This document shows, in pieces, positions 19,477 to 51,452 of a DNA stretch of 53,448 nt. The stretch spans positions 1 to 53,448 of IMG/VR virus record IMGVR_UViG_3300031753_000009, one strand, 5' to 3'. Made by a program: the position numbers and the translations under genes. The notes under the pieces were generated by a model. The model was not told where the DNA came from. It saw nothing but the letters and a program-made list of their open reading frames with translations, and ran no database searches. This stretch comes from a virus. Positions within the stretch are counted from its first letter, which is position 1; every line of letters starts with the position of its first letter.

Positions 19477-19505
19477 TTGACACTTCGAAAAAGCATGACT
19501 ATAAG
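19477..19505 (+). promoter_or_regulatory. Sigma70-type promoter of the HNH endonuclease gene
   Basis: TTGACA at 19477-19482, a 17-base spacer and TATAAG at 19500-19505, so six of six and five of six consensus bases. Transcription should begin near 19512, before the AAGGA ribosome site and the ATG at 19537. This rules out the in-frame ATG at 19495 as the start. Confidence 0.75.
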
Positions 19506-42675: not shown

Positions 42676-45147
42676 TTACGTATTTATGGTTTGGTGGTGG
42701 GTTGAAGGGTTGGCACCCTCTTCGGCATTCCAAACGGGCAAAACATGCCGCCACGGCCATTTTCCGTAATTCTTTTCCCATATTTTACGCGCTTCTGCTA
42801 ATTCAGGAAAGCGCCACATACTGCAATCCTTGGTGTGAATTACGATGCCTCCAAATTGCGCCAAGAACCGCCCTAAGCGTGTCGGGTTAATTTCATGCGA
42901 CTTTGGCGCGAACTCGCGCAGCATGTTCAAAAGCACATAGGCAGCCACGCGCTCCGACTTGTCCTGCGCCTTTTTCAAGGGTAGCGACCCTTGTTGCAGT
43001 ACGTGTTCCCACCATTCCGCTATCGGAGGCAACGATCGCGCCTTTTGCGCCTGCAATCCTGCCGTCTGCGGCACCATGCGGGGATGCCAGCCTCTCAGGT
43101 CACAGCGCAGCAAGTCATAAAGCATGGCCGCGAGGCCGCCATTCTCCATCTCGGCATTGATCGCCTCAAAATAATCGCGGCAACCGATTTTATCCCCGGA
43201 CACGTCGAACACCGCGAATCGCCGCTCATCCGCCGACGCCGGCACAACCCATTCCGAATTGGCAGCCATGATCACATGCAGGCGATTGATCCACGGGATG
43301 GCGTCAATCCCCTTCTGCTCGATCACGATCGTCGGCTCCGTAAGCATCCCCTTGAGTACCGATTCGCCTTGCTTGTCCCCAGCCCAGAAGGCTTCATCGG
43401 CGAACAACAGAAGGCACGAGCGCAAGTGGCCGTTGAACGAGCCGATCAGATGCTTCGGGCTGTACAGTTGCAGCCCGTGCGTCCCGAAGATGCGGCGCAA
43501 TGCGTTGGCGAACGTCCCTTTGCCGCTCCCCTTGCCTCCGCGGAATACCAGGGCTACCTCGGCGCGCTTGCCTGGATTCTGCACCGCCCATGCGGCCCAG
43601 CGCAGGATGTATTCGGCATAGCTGCGCTCCCCGGCGCCCAGCACTTTGCAAATGTGCTCGCGCATCAGGTTCCACTCGCCCGCCATGGGCTGCACCGCGA
43701 GCCCCGTCCAGAGGTTGAGAATCCCCCCTGGCAACGACGGCGGTTGATCGGGGATGAGGTCAATTCCCTCGAACGAGCGCCTATGCGGCCACTTGAGCCA
43801 CTCCCCGCCAAGCGCCGCGCGCTCCGCAGCTCCGGTCTTGGGATTTATCCCTTTGTCCACATAGCGGTTGGAGTAGCGGTCACGGAACGAATTGAATGTC
43901 TGGAACGACGGCACTTTGACTGTCTCATCGATCTTGCTGGCAACCCACGACATGACCAGGCACTTGCCGCCGATATCTCCGATCACCGCATACTTTTCAT
44001 TCAGCTCGATAAGGGGATTGGCCGGCGTGGCAGCGGCCTGGAAACCTGGAAAGGCAAGAGCGTGCCCGTTGATAGCCCGCCCTGGCTCATCCAAGGCGGG
44101 CTGCGCTACAACGGTCTTAGTGGGAGTTGCGGATACATCGGAGCGTCCGCAGTCAATTGGCATCACCTCCTCTCTTATCTCTCGCGGCGCCTTGCTTGGC
44201 GGCAACCATCCGGGCTGCACGCGCCGCGCTTCGTACACCAGGGTTCCGAAGTCGATATCGGCGGGCGGGCTCGATGCGTAATGCGTCCAACGCGCGTGCG
44301 CCGCCCCTTCCCGCCATTTCCTCGATTTCCTCGACCAGGCGTCGAAAAGGTCTGCCCCCTCGGGCAACCCCTCGAGTGCGCGCCAGCACGCCATACCTAT
44401 GCGATTCCAGGCGTCCCAGCCGATATCTTCGTTAGGAATCACATCCAGCGCCGCCGCCACATCGTCCCACGTCACATTGCGTTGATTATCGAGCGATCGT
44501 TGTGCTAGGTTGCGCGAGGAAGCGCGCTCCCCTGCTCGCATCGGGGATGATCCTGGGAACGATCCAGGATTCGTTGTGCGCTTCCCACCTCGCTCCGCAA
44601 ACCACGCAATGAGCCATTCCGGCGCTCTCGCGAGCGTGTTCTGATTCGCCCATCGGTAGCGATTCCCCGACTTGTGCATCGAGGGCGGCAGCACCACGAG
44701 CCCGCCATCGCCCCGGATATCGAGCCCGTTTCCCGAATTGGTCGGCGTCGGCGAATTGACGGCGAAGAGTAGATGCAAGCCACCACCCGATCGGCCGCTC
44801 ACAACCGCCGCCGTTGGTTCCAGCACCTTACCCGCGGCAATCTGCCGCAACAGGTTGACCCCTTCGGCGGTGTCGATGTCCACCACGGCGATGCCTGAGG
44901 CCGCTCCCGTGATCGCGCCGACGTTCGCATTTGGCCATTTTGTCCACCAGGCGACGATCTGTTCGGCGCTGGTTGAGGCCGCGGCGTGCCCTCGCCCTGT
45001 TTTGATTCGCGGATGTTTGCCGGCGGATAGGCAATCTCGTCCACGCCGGCAGGTGCAACACTCATCGGCGACACCGTGCAAGGGCAGCACGCGCCAGCCG
45101 CGCCCGGCATATTGGAGAGCTGCTTCTAATAGTGGGTTATCGGGCAT
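42676..45147 (-). CDS. Primase-polymerase / SF3-type helicase
   Basis: 823 residues from the ATG at 45147. Residues 1-190 are a prim-pol domain: RGWRVLPLHG, KHPRIKTGRGHAAAST, VVDIDTAEG and SGRSGGGLHLLF. Residues about 215-305 are a PriCT_2-like region (NEDIGWDAWNRIGMACWRAL). The rest holds the helicase with Walker A FRGGKGSGKGTFANALRRIF, Walker B LLLFADEAFWAG and RLHVIMAANSEW. It makes primers and opens DNA for phage replication. Confidence 0.88.
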   Translation of the reverse strand: MPDNPLLEAALQYAGRGWRVLPLHGVADECCTCRRGRDCLSAGKHPRIKTGRGHAAASTSAEQIVAWWTKWPNANVGAITGAASGIAVVDIDTAEGVNLLRQIAAGKVLEPTAAVVSGRSGGGLHLLFAVNSPTPTNSGNGLDIRGDGGLVVLPPSMHKSGNRYRWANQNTLARAPEWLIAWFAERGGKRTTNPGSFPGSSPMRAGERASSRNLAQRSLDNQRNVTWDDVAAALDVIPNEDIGWDAWNRIGMACWRALEGLPEGADLFDAWSRKSRKWREGAAHARWTHYASSPPADIDFGTLVYEARRVQPGWLPPSKAPREIREEVMPIDCGRSDVSATPTKTVVAQPALDEPGRAINGHALAFPGFQAAATPANPLIELNEKYAVIGDIGGKCLVMSWVASKIDETVKVPSFQTFNSFRDRYSNRYVDKGINPKTGAAERAALGGEWLKWPHRRSFEGIDLIPDQPPSLPGGILNLWTGLAVQPMAGEWNLMREHICKVLGAGERSYAEYILRWAAWAVQNPGKRAEVALVFRGGKGSGKGTFANALRRIFGTHGLQLYSPKHLIGSFNGHLRSCLLLFADEAFWAGDKQGESVLKGMLTEPTIVIEQKGIDAIPWINRLHVIMAANSEWVVPASADERRFAVFDVSGDKIGCRDYFEAINAEMENGGLAAMLYDLLRCDLRGWHPRMVPQTAGLQAQKARSLPPIAEWWEHVLQQGSLPLKKAQDKSERVAAYVLLNMLREFAPKSHEINPTRLGRFLAQFGGIVIHTKDCSMWRFPELAEARKIWEKNYGKWPWRHVLPVWNAEEGANPSTHHQTINT

Positions 45148-45161
45148 GATCTCCCCGCCGG

Positions 45162-45190
45162 TTGACAAGGAGGCACTGGTTCCCTATAGT
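45162..45190 (+). promoter_or_regulatory. Sigma70-type promoter of the candidate small RNA
   Basis: TTGACA (45162-45167), 17 bases, TATAGT (45185-45190). It points rightward, away from the primase gene, and starts only 15 bases from that gene's ATG. Expected start of RNA is near 45197. Confidence 0.75.
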
Positions 45191-45196
45191 GGGAAT

Positions 45197-45273
45197 CAGT
45201 CGCGGGCGGTCCCCTCCCTCCATCGCGACTTCGACACCTCCAAGACCCTCATCTCCCCGATGAGGGTCTTTTT
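45197..45273 (+). ncRNA. Candidate cuckoo/CcsR-like small RNA with anti-Shine-Dalgarno loop
   Basis: About 77 bases between a strong promoter and a strong terminator, with no credible reading frame. Hairpin 1: AGTCGCG (45198-45204) pairs with CGCGACT (45224-45230); its 19-base loop contains CCCCTCCCTCC, two overlapping CCTCC cores. Hairpin 2 is the terminator, with loop TCCCC. Alphaproteobacterial CcsR/cuckoo RNAs carry a CCUCCUCCC-type motif in a loop followed by a terminator. It lies antisense to the leader of the primase mRNA. Function is inferred. Confidence 0.6.
45242..45273 (+). terminator. Rho-independent terminator
   Basis: Perfect 12-base stem AAGACCCTCATC / GATGAGGGTCTT with a 5-base loop, then a T-run. 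It ends the candidate small RNA. Confidence 0.9.
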
Positions 45274-45278
45274 GTAGT

Positions 45279-45578
45279 GTCCGGTATTGTTCCTGCGGCG
45301 TCAATGATCGTCGTTTGTAACAAACTGACATATTATGTGATAAAATATCTCACGGGCTGGGCGCTACTCCAGCTCCCGCCTCTGCATCCGTAATTGATAG
45401 GCGTGTGCACTCCACTCAATTACAAAGCCGCGTGTCTAGCTTTCCACGCCGCCGTGAGACAGGGACTTATTAGCACAGAAAGACCGTGTTTGCCCATCTG
45501 TTTTACTCTGTAACAATTCGTGATTGGATTATTTGATTGTTTCAATATAGGTACGGTGTCAGCGCAAGAACTGGCTCC
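45279..45578. other. Upstream region of the early operon
   Basis: No gene seen in 300 bases. Two adjacent 11-base palindromes, TTTGTaACAAA (45314-45324) and ACATAtTATGT (45328-45338), are operator candidates. Nearer the first gene, TTGGAT, 16 bases and TATAGG (ending near 45551) may be a promoter for the rightward genes. Confidence 0.45.
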
Positions 45579-45902
45579 ATGGCATATCCATCGATCACTG
45601 AGCGCATTACCGACGCCCTGGCGGGCAAGGTCTTGGTTGACATCGGGCAATTCAACCCGGCAGATCGTCGCCGACTTGATAGGGAAGTCCGCGCCGGCCG
45701 CCTCGCAAAATGGCGGGGACATTGGTATCCGGATGCTGGCGCGCCGTGGGGTATTGGTCCGCTCAAAATGTGCTGGGGCCTACCCGAGATTCGCGATTAT
45801 CATGTCAACTTTACGCTAAGGACTGAGGGGAAAAATGAAAGATCATCGTTCGATAGCCGCTCGCGCCCTTCGAAAAGGGGACAAAGTGATTCATCCCGAT
45901 GA
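45579..45902 (+). CDS. Small conserved phage early protein
   Basis: 107 residues. The segment ITDALAGKVLVDIGQFNPAD, then REVRAGRLAKWRGHWYPDAG and GIGPLKMCWG, is a motif set I know from small phage early genes; it suggests a winged helix. The last 22 residues overlap the next gene and are polar. First gene of the rightward early block. Confidence 0.7.
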   Translation: MAYPSITERITDALAGKVLVDIGQFNPADRRRLDREVRAGRLAKWRGHWYPDAGAPWGIGPLKMCWGLPEIRDYHVNFTLRTEGKNERSSFDSRSRPSKRGQSDSSR

Positions 45903-46026
45903 AGGTGAGTGCATCGTTACAAAAATAAGAAAGTCGGACGGAGCCGTTTTTATTCGCACTGCGGATGGACTCGAAGGAACGTGCAGCGCAGAAATATTAA
46001 AATGGGCAAATGGAGGGGAAAAATGA
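45835..46026 (+). CDS. Small beta-barrel-like early protein
   Basis: 63 residues, GGGG before the ATG. LRKGDKVIHPDEGECIVTKI then DGAVFIRTADGLEGTCSAE looks like a small SH3-like or KOW-like barrel. No precise family. ATGA overlap with the next gene. Confidence 0.65.
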   Translation: MKDHRSIAARALRKGDKVIHPDEGECIVTKIRKSDGAVFIRTADGLEGTCSAEILKWANGGEK

Positions 46027-46529
46027 TGCATTGTTCACTCATAAAACCGCCAAAAGAACAGATGCGCCACTATAACTGGTGTGAGTGGGTTGGGGAATTC
46101 GAGCGCGGGGAGCGCATCATCCTTGTTGATGGCGTCCGTTGGGGACGGACGCATTGCACGTGGCATGGTTGCTGGGGCACAAGAATTACAATTAGGCAAG
46201 ATAACGGCGGTTGTATCGCGGACGAAAACGGTCCAATCGAAATCAGGTCCGGGCGCAAAGGACGCTGGGACGAAGAGTCGACCGACAATAAGGTTTTGAA
46301 AAAAGTTCAGGAACTGGTCGCCGCGGGCAAATTGCGTGATCCGAAGATCGTGCAAGCCGAGAACGAAAAAGCAGCCGCGGAATACAGTCGCCGCGCTGCC
46401 GAGCGCGACGCGCAAGAGGAATTACAATTCAGAAAGCGCGCATGCGAAGCGTTAGGCCTGAACAGCGATAACGGCTCGGAGCTTGTGACTCGTGTCGTCG
46501 CGGCAATGCGATGGGCGCAATCGAAATGA
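46023..46529 (+). CDS. Unknown early protein with helical C-terminus
   Basis: 168 residues, GGAGGGG five bases before the ATG at 46023. The N-terminal half has Cys, Trp and His clusters (HYNWCEWVGEFERGERIIL; THCTWHGCWGTRI). The C-terminal half is a long charged helix (AENEKAAAEYSRRAAERDAQ). No family recognised. Confidence 0.6.
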   Translation: MMHCSLIKPPKEQMRHYNWCEWVGEFERGERIILVDGVRWGRTHCTWHGCWGTRITIRQDNGGCIADENGPIEIRSGRKGRWDEESTDNKVLKKVQELVAAGKLRDPKIVQAENEKAAAEYSRRAAERDAQEELQFRKRACEALGLNSDNGSELVTRVVAAMRWAQSK

Positions 46530-46549
46530 ACGGATATGGAGGCTGCGCG

Positions 46550-47185
46550 ATGACCACATGGCTCACCGATGAAAACGGCAACAAATGCTCCGTGGAATAT
46601 TTCGGCACGCGAGAGGCCGCACAAGTGGCGCTCGATAGCCTGAAAGCTTGCCGGGATTGCACCAACTGCTCGCGCTGCTCGCGCTGCTCGTACTGCTCGT
46701 ACTGCTCGCGCTGCTCGTACTGCTCGTACTGCTCGCGCTGCTCGTACTGCTCGCGCTGCTCGTACTGCTCGGGCTGCTCGTACTGCTCGGACTGCTCGGA
46801 CTGCTCGGACTGCTCGGACTGCTCGTACTGCTCGCGCTGCTCGTACAAAAAAAATGTCAAAGAGGGGTCCGGCGCCGCCAGCCTTGGACCTCCACCCATT
46901 CCGGTGATTGAGGACATCCATCGTCGCGTGTATGTAGCAGTGTCGGCGCCGCACGCTCTCGACATGAGAAACTGGCACACCTGCAACACGACGCACTGTC
47001 GGGCCGGCTGGGTCGTGCATCTGGCGGGCGAGGCCGGTTACGCATTGGAGCAGTTTTTTAATACACCGCTTGCCGCCCAACTGATCTATCGCGCGAGCGG
47101 TGCACCGATCAATCCCGGAAGGTTTTACGACAACAATGATGACGCGCTCGCCGACATGAAGCGGCTTGCTGAGCGCACTCTGTGA
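46550..47185 (+). CDS. Cys-Ser-X repeat protein
   Basis: 211 residues from the ATG at 46550 (GGAGG at seven bases; earlier ATGs lack this). Residues 34-97 hold 22 cysteines spaced exactly three apart, almost all as Cys-Ser-X with X Tyr, Arg, Asp or Gly. An N-terminal WLTDENGNKCSVEYFGTREA and the C-terminal RNWHTCNTTHCRAGWVVHLA plus LADMKRLAE blocks are conserved in a family found in phages and bacteria. Function unknown; metal binding or a regular disulfide or cross-linked coil is possible. Confidence 0.75.
   Translation: MTTWLTDENGNKCSVEYFGTREAAQVALDSLKACRDCTNCSRCSRCSYCSYCSRCSYCSYCSRCSYCSRCSYCSGCSYCSDCSDCSDCSDCSYCSRCSYKKNVKEGSGAASLGPPPIPVIEDIHRRVYVAVSAPHALDMRNWHTCNTTHCRAGWVVHLAGEAGYALEQFFNTPLAAQLIYRASGAPINPGRFYDNNDDALADMKRLAERTL
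46668..46846 (+). repeat. 9-bp tandem repeat coding the Cys-Ser-X tract
   Basis: About twenty copies of CTGCTCG plus two variable bases (mostly CG, TA or GA). The repeat keeps several frames open in both directions, which explains false frames over this region. Confidence 0.9.
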
Positions 47186-47412
47186 CCGAACCCGAACGCG
47201 CGCAAAGGTGGAGGGTCGGCAACAACCTGACGCTGGCGGAGCTGGCGCAGTTGACCGGGTTTTCCATCTCCGCCATCAGCCGATTCGAACAAGGCATGTT
47301 CCAGAACCACGGCAAGGCGGGATTTCACAAAATCCCCCAAGCGGCATGGAAACGATATAAGCTCGTGTGCGCGGCAGTGGCGAGCGGAGCGAGCAAGACA
47401 TTTGATTGGTGA
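47182..47412 (+). CDS. XRE-type HTH regulator
   Basis: 76 residues from a GTG overlapping the previous stop as GTGA. LTLAELAQLTGFSISAISRFEQG is a Cro/cI-type helix-turn-helix. Lacks a large C-terminal domain. It may control the early operon, for example through the palindromes near 45.3 kb. Confidence 0.8.
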   Translation: MTEPERAQRWRVGNNLTLAELAQLTGFSISAISRFEQGMFQNHGKAGFHKIPQAAWKRYKLVCAAVASGASKTFDW

Positions 47413-49015: not shown

Positions 49016-49522
49016 ATGCGCCCTGTCGTAATCGACTTCGAGACGTATTTCGCAGACGACTTCACGCTGTCCAAAATGTCAACGGAAGCGTACATCCGCG
49101 ATCCGCGCTTCCAGGCTCACGGCGCCGCGATCAAATGGAGCGTCAACCATGCCGCCAAGTGGTATGACGGGCGGCAGCTTCGGCACGTCCTGGCGAACGA
49201 GGATTGGTCTGACGTTTTTCTTATTGCTTGGCACGCGCAATTCGACGGACTGATTCTCTCCCATCATTACGGAGTGAAACCGGCGATGTGGGGCTGCCCC
49301 ATGTCAATGGCGCGCTTGCTTCATCCTCCGCACGGCTCCGTCTCTTTGGACAATATTCGCAAATTATATGGCATGCCGGCGAAGACGACGCCGTACAATC
49401 TGTTCAAGAACAAGCGATGGGAGGACATGACGCCCGACGTGCAGCGCCAGGTTGCCGAGGGGGCGGAAGATGAAGTAAAATCGATTTGGTTGTTGTTTCA
49501 GAAGTTCATGAGGGAAGGTTGA
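49016..49522 (+). CDS. DNA polymerase 3'-5' exonuclease part (split gene)
   Basis: 168 residues, AAGGGG eight bases before the ATG. It is the DnaQ-like proofreading domain of a family A polymerase: Exo I VVIDFETYFADDF, Exo II WHAQFDGLILSHHYG, Exo III region VAEGAEDEVKSIWLLF. It stops after FMREG, and a polymerase with the natural continuation FPIEELEII starts 553 bases later, beyond a methyltransferase gene. The two parts likely act together in trans. Confidence 0.85.
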   Translation: MRPVVIDFETYFADDFTLSKMSTEAYIRDPRFQAHGAAIKWSVNHAAKWYDGRQLRHVLANEDWSDVFLIAWHAQFDGLILSHHYGVKPAMWGCPMSMARLLHPPHGSVSLDNIRKLYGMPAKTTPYNLFKNKRWEDMTPDVQRQVAEGAEDEVKSIWLLFQKFMREG

Positions 49523-49527
49523 ATAAC

Positions 49528-50079
49528 ATGGAACTCCCCAAATACGGGGTTATTTATGCTGATCCTCCTTGGGCTTATGGAGATAAAGGATTCGGCAAGC
49601 GACCTGAACAAGCCGAAAGCGGTTCGTTTGCGCCAGAAGCGGGCCGCTATAACACCATGACTATTGCAGACATCGCGGCTATGCCGGTATATAAAATTGC
49701 TGATGAAAATTGTGCTTTACTGCTTTGGGCAACGTCGCCGCTGCTTCCAGAAGCGTTGCACGTAATTTCCTCGTGGAAATTTAAGTTCAAAACCGTTGCT
49801 TTTTGCTGGTCAAAAATAACTTCGACAGGAAAGGAAGTTGCAAATTTGGGGCAATGGACTATGGGCAACGTAGAATTATGTTTGCTCGCGACAAAAGGAT
49901 CGCCAAAACGGTTGCGGCGCGATGTAAGACAATTGGTCGTAGACACGCGCACCGAGCACAGTAAAAAACCCGAAGAAGTGCGAACTAGAATCGAAGCTAT
50001 TTTTGGAAACGTGCGAAAAATCGAACTGTTTGCGCGCACGCGCGCTGCTGGATGGGATTCGTGGGGCAATCAATTATGA
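49528..50079 (+). CDS. MT-A70-family adenine methyltransferase
   Basis: 183 residues from the ATG at 49528. YGVIYADPPWAYGDK holds the catalytic DPPW, and LLLWATSPLLPEAL, FCWSKI and GNVELCLLATKGSPKRL follow the family; the end ARTRAAGWDSWGNQ is typical of phage members. It would methylate adenine in DNA. It lies exactly between the two parts of the DNA polymerase and is richer in A and T than its neighbours, which suggests recent insertion. Confidence 0.88.
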   Translation: MELPKYGVIYADPPWAYGDKGFGKRPEQAESGSFAPEAGRYNTMTIADIAAMPVYKIADENCALLLWATSPLLPEALHVISSWKFKFKTVAFCWSKITSTGKEVANLGQWTMGNVELCLLATKGSPKRLRRDVRQLVVDTRTEHSKKPEEVRTRIEAIFGNVRKIELFARTRAAGWDSWGNQL

Positions 50080-51452
50080 CCTTCCCCATCGAAGAACTGG
50101 AAATCATAGATTCCGTCGTCCAGATGTTCACCAATCCCGTGCTCCGCGCCGACGTGGATTTGCTCGGGAAGGTGTGGACGACCGAGGCGACCAAAAAGCA
50201 AGAGCGCATGACGGCGCTCGGCATCACCGAGGCCGACGTGCAATCCGCTGACAAATTCCAGGCGTTGCTTGAAGCCGAAGGTGTTGAGATCGAGTACAAA
50301 AAGGGCAAGAACGGCGACATTCCCGCCTTTGCCAAGAACGATGAGTTCATGCAACGTTTGTTGGAGGACGGCGATGAGCGAATCAGGACGCTTGCCGAGG
50401 CGCGCATCGGTGCCAAATCGACGCTGTTACAGACGCGCGCCGAGACGCTGGGCTGGATGGCAAGTCGGGGACCTTTGTGCGTTTATCTGCGCTACTGCGG
50501 AGCTGCTACCTTGCGCCCAACGGGCGGCGATGGCGCGAACTGGCTTAATTTCAAACGTGGTTCAGATATCCGACGTTCGATTCTGGCGCCGGAAGGCTAC
50601 CTCCTAGCTCCGATCGATGCTTCCCAGATCGAGTTTCGCGTCGCGATGTACCTCGCCGGTCAGGACGATGTGCTCGATCTGTTGCGCAATGGAGGTGATC
50701 CGTACATTGGTATCGCTTCTGAATTTTACGGAGAGCAAATATACAAACCTCAAAAAGACGACCCTCGCAAGCTGGAAATGGAACAAAAAAGGGGAACTGG
50801 CAAAGTTGCCCAATTGCAATGCCAATACGGTTCGTCAGGCAAGTCTTTTCGCCGTGCAGTTCGTTCAGGAGCGTATGGTCCGCCGGTCGATATGCCTATT
50901 GAAGATGCTAACCGCTTTGTAAAGCTGTATCGTGATACGCATCTCAAAGTGTGCGCCCGTCCAGGCGGCTATTGGTCCCAATGCGACCGCATGATTGCGC
51001 GCCTTGCCGGCGGGCCGCCTGTGGAATGGGGACCGCTGACCGTCAAGGATCACAGAATTTACTTGCCAAACGGCACCTTCATGAATTATGAAAGTTTGGA
51101 ATTTCATCATCCTGGTGCGGACGAGGAAGCAAGGGATTTCGAGCGCAACGGCTACTGGCGCGTGCGCACCAGGCAAGGATGGAAAAAACTGTGGGGATCG
51201 AAGCTTACCCAGAATATCTGCGAGGCGGTCAGCCGCGTCATCGTCAGTCAGGCGATGATTCGCATCAAGCGGCAGCATGGCATCCGAACGTTGAACTGGC
51301 CGTATGACGAGCTGCTTCTTCTTGTTCCCGATGATTCGAAAGCAGAGGAAGTTGTGAAAGCATGCCGGCAGGAATTGTGCAGGACGCCCGACTGGCTCCC
51401 CGGCATTCCGCTAGATGCTGAGGCAACGATCGGTAAGAGGTATAGTAAATAA
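50076..51452 (+). CDS. Family A DNA polymerase, polymerase part (split gene)
   Basis: 458 residues from an ATGA overlap. Motif A: LAPIDASQIEFRVAMYLAGQ. Motif B: KRGTGKVAQLQCQYGSSGKS. Motif C: TLNWPYDELLLLVP, where the usual HDE reads YDE. The end SKLTQNICEAVSRVIVSQAM is also typical. It lacks the exonuclease domain, which is encoded separately upstream. It copies the phage genome. Confidence 0.9.
   Translation: MTFPIEELEIIDSVVQMFTNPVLRADVDLLGKVWTTEATKKQERMTALGITEADVQSADKFQALLEAEGVEIEYKKGKNGDIPAFAKNDEFMQRLLEDGDERIRTLAEARIGAKSTLLQTRAETLGWMASRGPLCVYLRYCGAATLRPTGGDGANWLNFKRGSDIRRSILAPEGYLLAPIDASQIEFRVAMYLAGQDDVLDLLRNGGDPYIGIASEFYGEQIYKPQKDDPRKLEMEQKRGTGKVAQLQCQYGSSGKSFRRAVRSGAYGPPVDMPIEDANRFVKLYRDTHLKVCARPGGYWSQCDRMIARLAGGPPVEWGPLTVKDHRIYLPNGTFMNYESLEFHHPGADEEARDFERNGYWRVRTRQGWKKLWGSKLTQNICEAVSRVIVSQAMIRIKRQHGIRTLNWPYDELLLLVPDDSKAEEVVKACRQELCRTPDWLPGIPLDAEATIGKRYSK

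Follow-up and report, generated by a model that had tools for sequence, protein, structure and literature searches.

The region in front of the primase operon of an uncultivated phage probably encodes a small RNA (sRNA) that is a real regulator of phage replication and not a chance pattern. The window, that is, the whole 53,448-base virus record from IMG/VR that we analyzed, contains at 45162–45275 (+) a promoter, a hairpin with a C-rich loop, and an intrinsic terminator that together point against the leftward primase operon. About 24 other distinct phages carry a counterpart at the corresponding position, so we take the unit in the window to be more than chance. The best-supported mechanism, in which we place moderate confidence, is that of a cis-encoded antisense RNA that throttles the primase operon; a trans-acting role against Shine–Dalgarno sequences is its main rival, or possibly a second function of the same RNA.

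The promoter of the unit (45162–45190, +) has the −35 box TTGACA, a 17-nt spacer, and the −10 box TATAGT, that is, it matches the consensus at 11 of 12 positions; with one mismatch or fewer at a fixed 17-nt spacing, the whole window holds just two such promoters, this one and a site at 19477. The predicted RNA (45197–45275, +; start placed 7 nt past the −10 box) would be about 79–80 nt long. It opens with a 5′ hairpin (45198–45230, +) whose 7-bp stem, AGTCGCG (45198–45204) with CGCGACT (45224–45230), closes a 19-nt loop (45205–45223) that exposes CCCCTCCCTCC at 45211–45221; this exact 11-mer has a single occurrence in the window. A single-stranded linker (45231–45241, +) with a second C-rich patch, CACCTCC, leads to the terminator (45242–45274, +), in which a perfect 12-bp stem (45242–45270) with the loop TCCCC is followed by a T-run. 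The folding energy of the 80-nt RNA is −33.9 kcal/mol, compared with −19.7 ± 2.8 kcal/mol for shuffled sequences (z = −5.0). An earlier, sequence-only reading of this DNA had described a near-consensus promoter, a hairpin with a 19-base loop, and a perfect terminator, and we recovered all three; its statement that the site holds no protein frame was slightly wrong, as a 201-residue ORF on the + strand (44672–45277), antisense to primase, crosses the site, although nothing marks this ORF as a gene and it looks spurious. The 112 bases of that description are likely a small-RNA gene with a strong promoter and an intrinsic terminator. A perfect dyad, TTCCC-N6-GGGAA (TTCCC-TATAGT-GGGAA; 45180–45195), overlaps the −10 box and could be an operator; we rejected this reading, its exact copy being single in the window and, by eye, not conserved among relatives.

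Single promoter-like and terminator-like matches are not rare by chance, so we took conservation as the test of whether the unit is real. Relatives were gathered from IMG/VR with the DNA polymerase and primase of the window (near-complete contigs mostly 62–68 kb; loci are cited by L numbers). Among close relatives whose sequence ahead of primase was readable, promoter–RNA–terminator units of like size and the same direction immediately precede the leftward primase operon in 30 cases, the window included; when near-identical units are merged, about 25 distinct units remain, loci without a detected primase having been excluded. The units consist of a TTGNNN −35 box, a −10 region, an RNA usually 55–100 nt long, and a terminator, and a −35/−10 pair comparable to that of the window, picked by eye, could be placed before the terminator in 30/30. 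The promoter and terminator boundaries in relatives were likewise set by eye, because an automated promoter–terminator scan was both too strict and too noisy. A blind scan for terminators upstream of primase gave hits in 12 of 20 close relatives versus 1 of 56 distant ones.

When the upstream region was read in two more distant loci (L002 and L058), it held no identifiable unit; a terminated stretch is present in L059/L037 and was left out of the unit set, and for L088 and L089 the stretch examined stopped short of a clear primase start. By eye, no such unit precedes primase in the cultured relatives DLP4, AXL_1, PaMx28, PaMx74, A1432, YB23, VBv52, and Tedan; therefore, no cultured phage with published data can act as a stand-in. 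A host search, consisting of one scan of genome contigs, gave no useful relative. In many relatives the −10 region contains GCTA (TTGAC … GCTANA), as in Caulobacter RpoD promoters, and boxes of this type fit an alphaproteobacterial host without showing one. Four loci (L024, L026, L030, and L110) have a second promoter–RNA–terminator-like unit after the first; in L110 the hairpin of the second unit reads CGGTGGA-CCTCCC-TCCACCG.

In close pairs of relatives the sRNA (5′ region plus terminator) is 90–100% identical. For L004/L006, L027/L090, and L083/L090 this conservation is local, with 95–100% identity in the sRNA versus 63–78% over the next 150 nt; for L027/L083 and within the L003 group, flank identity reaches 93–97% as well, so these comparisons are uninformative on selection. 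In the wider pairs L026/L030 and L030/L110, the promoter and terminator hold 88–96% identity and the 5′ region falls to 57–62%. Where one member of a pair has an insertion or meets a contig end, the primase identity was unusable, and a six-sequence DNA alignment placed the stems too poorly for a count of covariation, so we claim none.

The first gene that the unit faces encodes a primase/helicase (42676–45147, −; PHROG 1156), with the Shine–Dalgarno sequence GGGGAG at 45156–45151; the ATG at 45147 is more likely to be its start than the TTG at 45168. A promoter for the leftward operon is predicted just past the sRNA terminator (45276–45304, −; −35 TTGACG at 45304–45299, 17-nt spacer, −10 GACACT at 45281–45276), with a start near 45269, that is, within the sRNA terminator. 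A primase leader that starts at such a site would therefore be complementary to most or all of the sRNA. In the window, where this predicted leader spans about 45269–45148, the predicted sRNA is antisense to it except for the last few sRNA bases, and the complementary stretch of the leader ends about 40 nt ahead of the primase Shine–Dalgarno sequence.

The leftward −35 box recurs among the relatives: CGTCAA, the complement of TTGACG, lies 18–75 nt past the terminator in 19 of the 25 distinct units versus 0.9% of background windows, and for most units the distance from terminator to box is 29–71 bases. A transcript from such a promoter is predicted to cross the unit and continue into primase. 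The TTGAC box is missing in three loci (L023, L031, and L114), and in L085 it is found only at 128 nt. The leftward −10 boxes are weak (16–18 nt from the −35 box, the best of three spacings being chosen), and several loci have their predicted leftward start within the terminator, which leaves the overlap just short of complete. The unit usually adjoins the Shine–Dalgarno sequence of the first leftward gene. L026 and L032 have additional sequence between primase and the unit, yet the leftward box is still beside the unit. The earlier proposal that a separate small-RNA gene lies antisense to the leader of the primase mRNA is supported, and the arrangement is kept across the phage lineage, the leader being predicted from the conserved leftward box.

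In the window, the terminator-loop segment ATCTCCCCG (45251–45259) repeats 45149–45157 and so provides a 9-nt complement of the primase Shine–Dalgarno sequence CGGGGAGAT; this match is not general, as complementarity to the translation start of the first leftward gene is not significant across the family (p = 0.29). We also considered and rejected the C-rich motif as the complement of the Shine–Dalgarno sequence of an ORF in the leftward leader, usable start codons being present in some loci only and the frames being mostly short. In L003 and its kin, a GTG stands 3 nt past the complement of the C-rich motif; in L003 this GTG is in frame with primase and could be an alternative primase start.

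Antisense RNAs that control plasmid copy number (e.g., CopA of R1 and RNAII of pMV158) are short and structured, have their own promoter and terminator, and lie opposite the 5′ region of the rep mRNA. The phage unit shares this architecture: it has a promoter and a terminator of its own and lies opposite the predicted leader of a replication-protein gene. It differs from CopA and RNAII in its phage setting, in facing a primase/helicase operon instead of a rep gene, and in its C-rich loop. RNAII of pMV158 acts by inhibiting the translation of repB (PMC4485353). In the mechanism that we favor, the sRNA would be transcribed head-on against the primase operon from the stronger promoter, and its C-rich loop would be the first part to pair, with its G-rich counterpart loop in the primase leader; the resulting duplex would block primase translation or open the mRNA to nuclease, and primase output would be tied to the dose of sRNA, as in plasmid copy control. 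The analysis shows the sequence elements, how well they are conserved, and an overlap between predicted sRNA and predicted leader; we infer both transcripts, the leftward start sites, the duplex, and the effect on primase from the DNA.

Short phage antisense RNAs located in the early/replication or immunity region include lambda OOP, P22 sar, and P1/P7 c4 (PMC12197685), and the RNA described here would likewise be a short, phage-encoded antisense RNA in such a region. Its proposed target, the leader of the primase operon, is different: OOP covers cII, and sar and c4 act on antirepressor mRNA (the sequences were compared via Rfam only). In the literature that we searched, which covers part of the field, we found no case of a phage primase operon faced by a conserved antisense RNA. 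A more speculative proposal, which we consider unlikely, is that the units form an undescribed family of phage antisense RNAs that set primase output. In this proposal, the loop changes quickly between a conserved promoter and a conserved terminator and makes the specificity of each phage its own; a relative that shares the loop, whether resident or co-infecting, would be shut down, as in plasmid incompatibility. If antisense control is correct, a whole lineage of uncultivated phages regulates its replication operon by a design known mainly from plasmids; about 25 natural sense/antisense pairs would be available for studying how such pairs diverge, and the use of RNA by phages for dosage control or superinfection specificity could be tested directly.

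The sequence-only reading had assigned the RNA the build of the cuckoo/CcsR RNAs and proposed a covariance-model comparison; our results do not support placing the RNA in that family. The best match of the window RNA in Rfam is ar14 (RF02344), at 23.5 bits, far under the gathering score of 58.8; three relatives score 16–20 bits against the same model, and at gathering cut-offs Rfam gives no match in the window. Assignment of the relatives to an Rfam family was also rejected: the weak matches of 20 relatives are scattered over many unrelated families. The ar14 family is defined by three hairpins, each with an unpaired CCUCCUCCC (PMC10746234). The exact CCUCCUCCC motif is absent from the window RNA, which has a single 5′ hairpin with CCCCTCCCTCC, CACCTCC in the linker, and TCCCC in the terminator loop; unlike ar14, the phage RNA shows CCCCUCCCUCC in its only 5′ hairpin, which is followed by the linker patch and the terminator. 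CcsR RNAs are processed from the transcript of the ccaF1 (DUF1127) operon (PMC10253847); the phage unit has its own promoter, its upstream neighbor is primase, and no DUF1127/CcaF gene was recognized adjacent to it (without a Pfam DUF1127 scan). What the phage RNA does share with ar14/NfeR1 and the cuckoo RNAs of Alphaproteobacteria (CcsR1–4) is the presence of C-rich unpaired patches able to cover Shine–Dalgarno sequences; the settings are also alike in that the promoters of many relatives look alphaproteobacterial.

These patches suggest another function, namely that of a trans-acting sRNA of the ar14/cuckoo type whose loop blocks the translation of rightward early phage genes or of host mRNAs; the top rank of ar14 among Rfam matches to the window RNA agrees with this function, which we regard as possible but on the doubtful side. 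Purely cis-antisense action does not require C-rich loops, yet the 5′ regions of the units contain 373 C versus 226 G, and among unpaired bases C exceeds G in all 25 distinct units. The C-rich stretch itself is predicted to be open, with an unpaired probability of 0.96 for TCCCC of the loop in the window RNA and 0.99–1.00 in the CCCCTT group; however, shuffles of equal composition reproduce most of the unpaired C excess. The claim that the loop complements Shine–Dalgarno sequences holds at two rightward genes in the window: GAGGGGAAAAATG (45825–45837, +) contains the Shine–Dalgarno sequence and start of the gene at 45835–46026, its GAGGGGA being complementary to TCCCCTC of the sRNA loop, and a second GAGGGGAAAAATG (46013–46025, +), at the start of the next rightward gene (translation start 46023), is complementary to the loop likewise. 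Across relatives, own RNAs matched the first rightward gene with a Shine–Dalgarno sequence better than swapped RNAs did (p = 0.010 without and 0.016 with G–U pairs), a result that uses contiguous helices and start sites chosen by a simple rule and that is inflated by shared ancestry, which is still included. Contiguous helices replaced RNAduplex, which allows long internal loops and was too permissive (p = 0.08); the switch was made after that result. The contiguous match to this gene spans 10 nt in L005, 8 nt in L008, and 7 nt in the window, and we consider a match of the sRNA to the first Shine–Dalgarno sequence of the rightward operon weakly supported. The broader form of the claim failed: in 21 phages, the best match to any translation start was no better than for shuffled (p = 0.83) or swapped (p = 0.97) RNAs, the eye-catching translation-start sites in L004 and L027 having been seen in a first look at the raw 20-kb loci, before this genome-wide test. 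Against dinucleotide-shuffled controls, similarity to the 16S tail is also not significant as a family-wide property (Fisher p = 0.05). The units that stand out are those of L112 and L030, and L112 carries GGTCACCTCCTTT, which is close in sequence to the 16S 3′ end.

Throttling of primase by an antisense RNA must also be weighed against explanations in which the RNA product is irrelevant. The strong opposing promoter and the terminator could limit leftward transcription by collision or insulate the divergent operons, possibly near a replication origin; this agrees with the promoter and terminator being the best conserved parts in the wider comparisons and with the minimum of the cumulative GC skew at about 45000–46000, as either divergent transcription or a replication origin could produce. 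We judge it improbable, given that the RNA body is as highly conserved as described above in close relatives, where several pairs show it to be far better conserved than the intergenic DNA beside it, and that foldable C-rich loops recur among relatives. A chance arrangement, or a mere leader or attenuator of the rightward operon, is very improbable: chance accounts for single promoter-like and terminator-like sites at the frequency seen, but 25 distinct loci have the unit at the corresponding position, and in most of the relatives read by eye the rightward operon has its own promoter-like site past the terminator. In the window, this candidate for a separate rightward promoter (45317–45346, +; 9/12) is at the edge of chance, with two promoter-like sites found in a 2.5-kb stretch versus 1.2 expected.

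The rightward operon contains a gene for a small helix-turn-helix-like protein (47182–47412, +), a description that comes from reading its sequence, as it has no family match; it was matched in 18 of the 19 relatives tested and serves as a marker of the conserved locus. Downstream of the promoter-like site, a foldable stretch at 45348–45460, TCTCACGG...CCGTGAGA, gives z scores of −1.3 (+ strand) and −2.4 (− strand), and it has no Rfam match. The gene at 46511–47185 (+) encodes a protein with about 25 tandem Cys-Ser-X tripeptides, and a comparable part of the operon in L003 (8440–8640) has a different short-repeat stretch (WSAA/ESAA). The DNA polymerase gene (49016–51452, +) appears to be split into an N part (49016–49522) and a C part (50052–51452), with a DNA methyltransferase ORF (49486–50079) between them.
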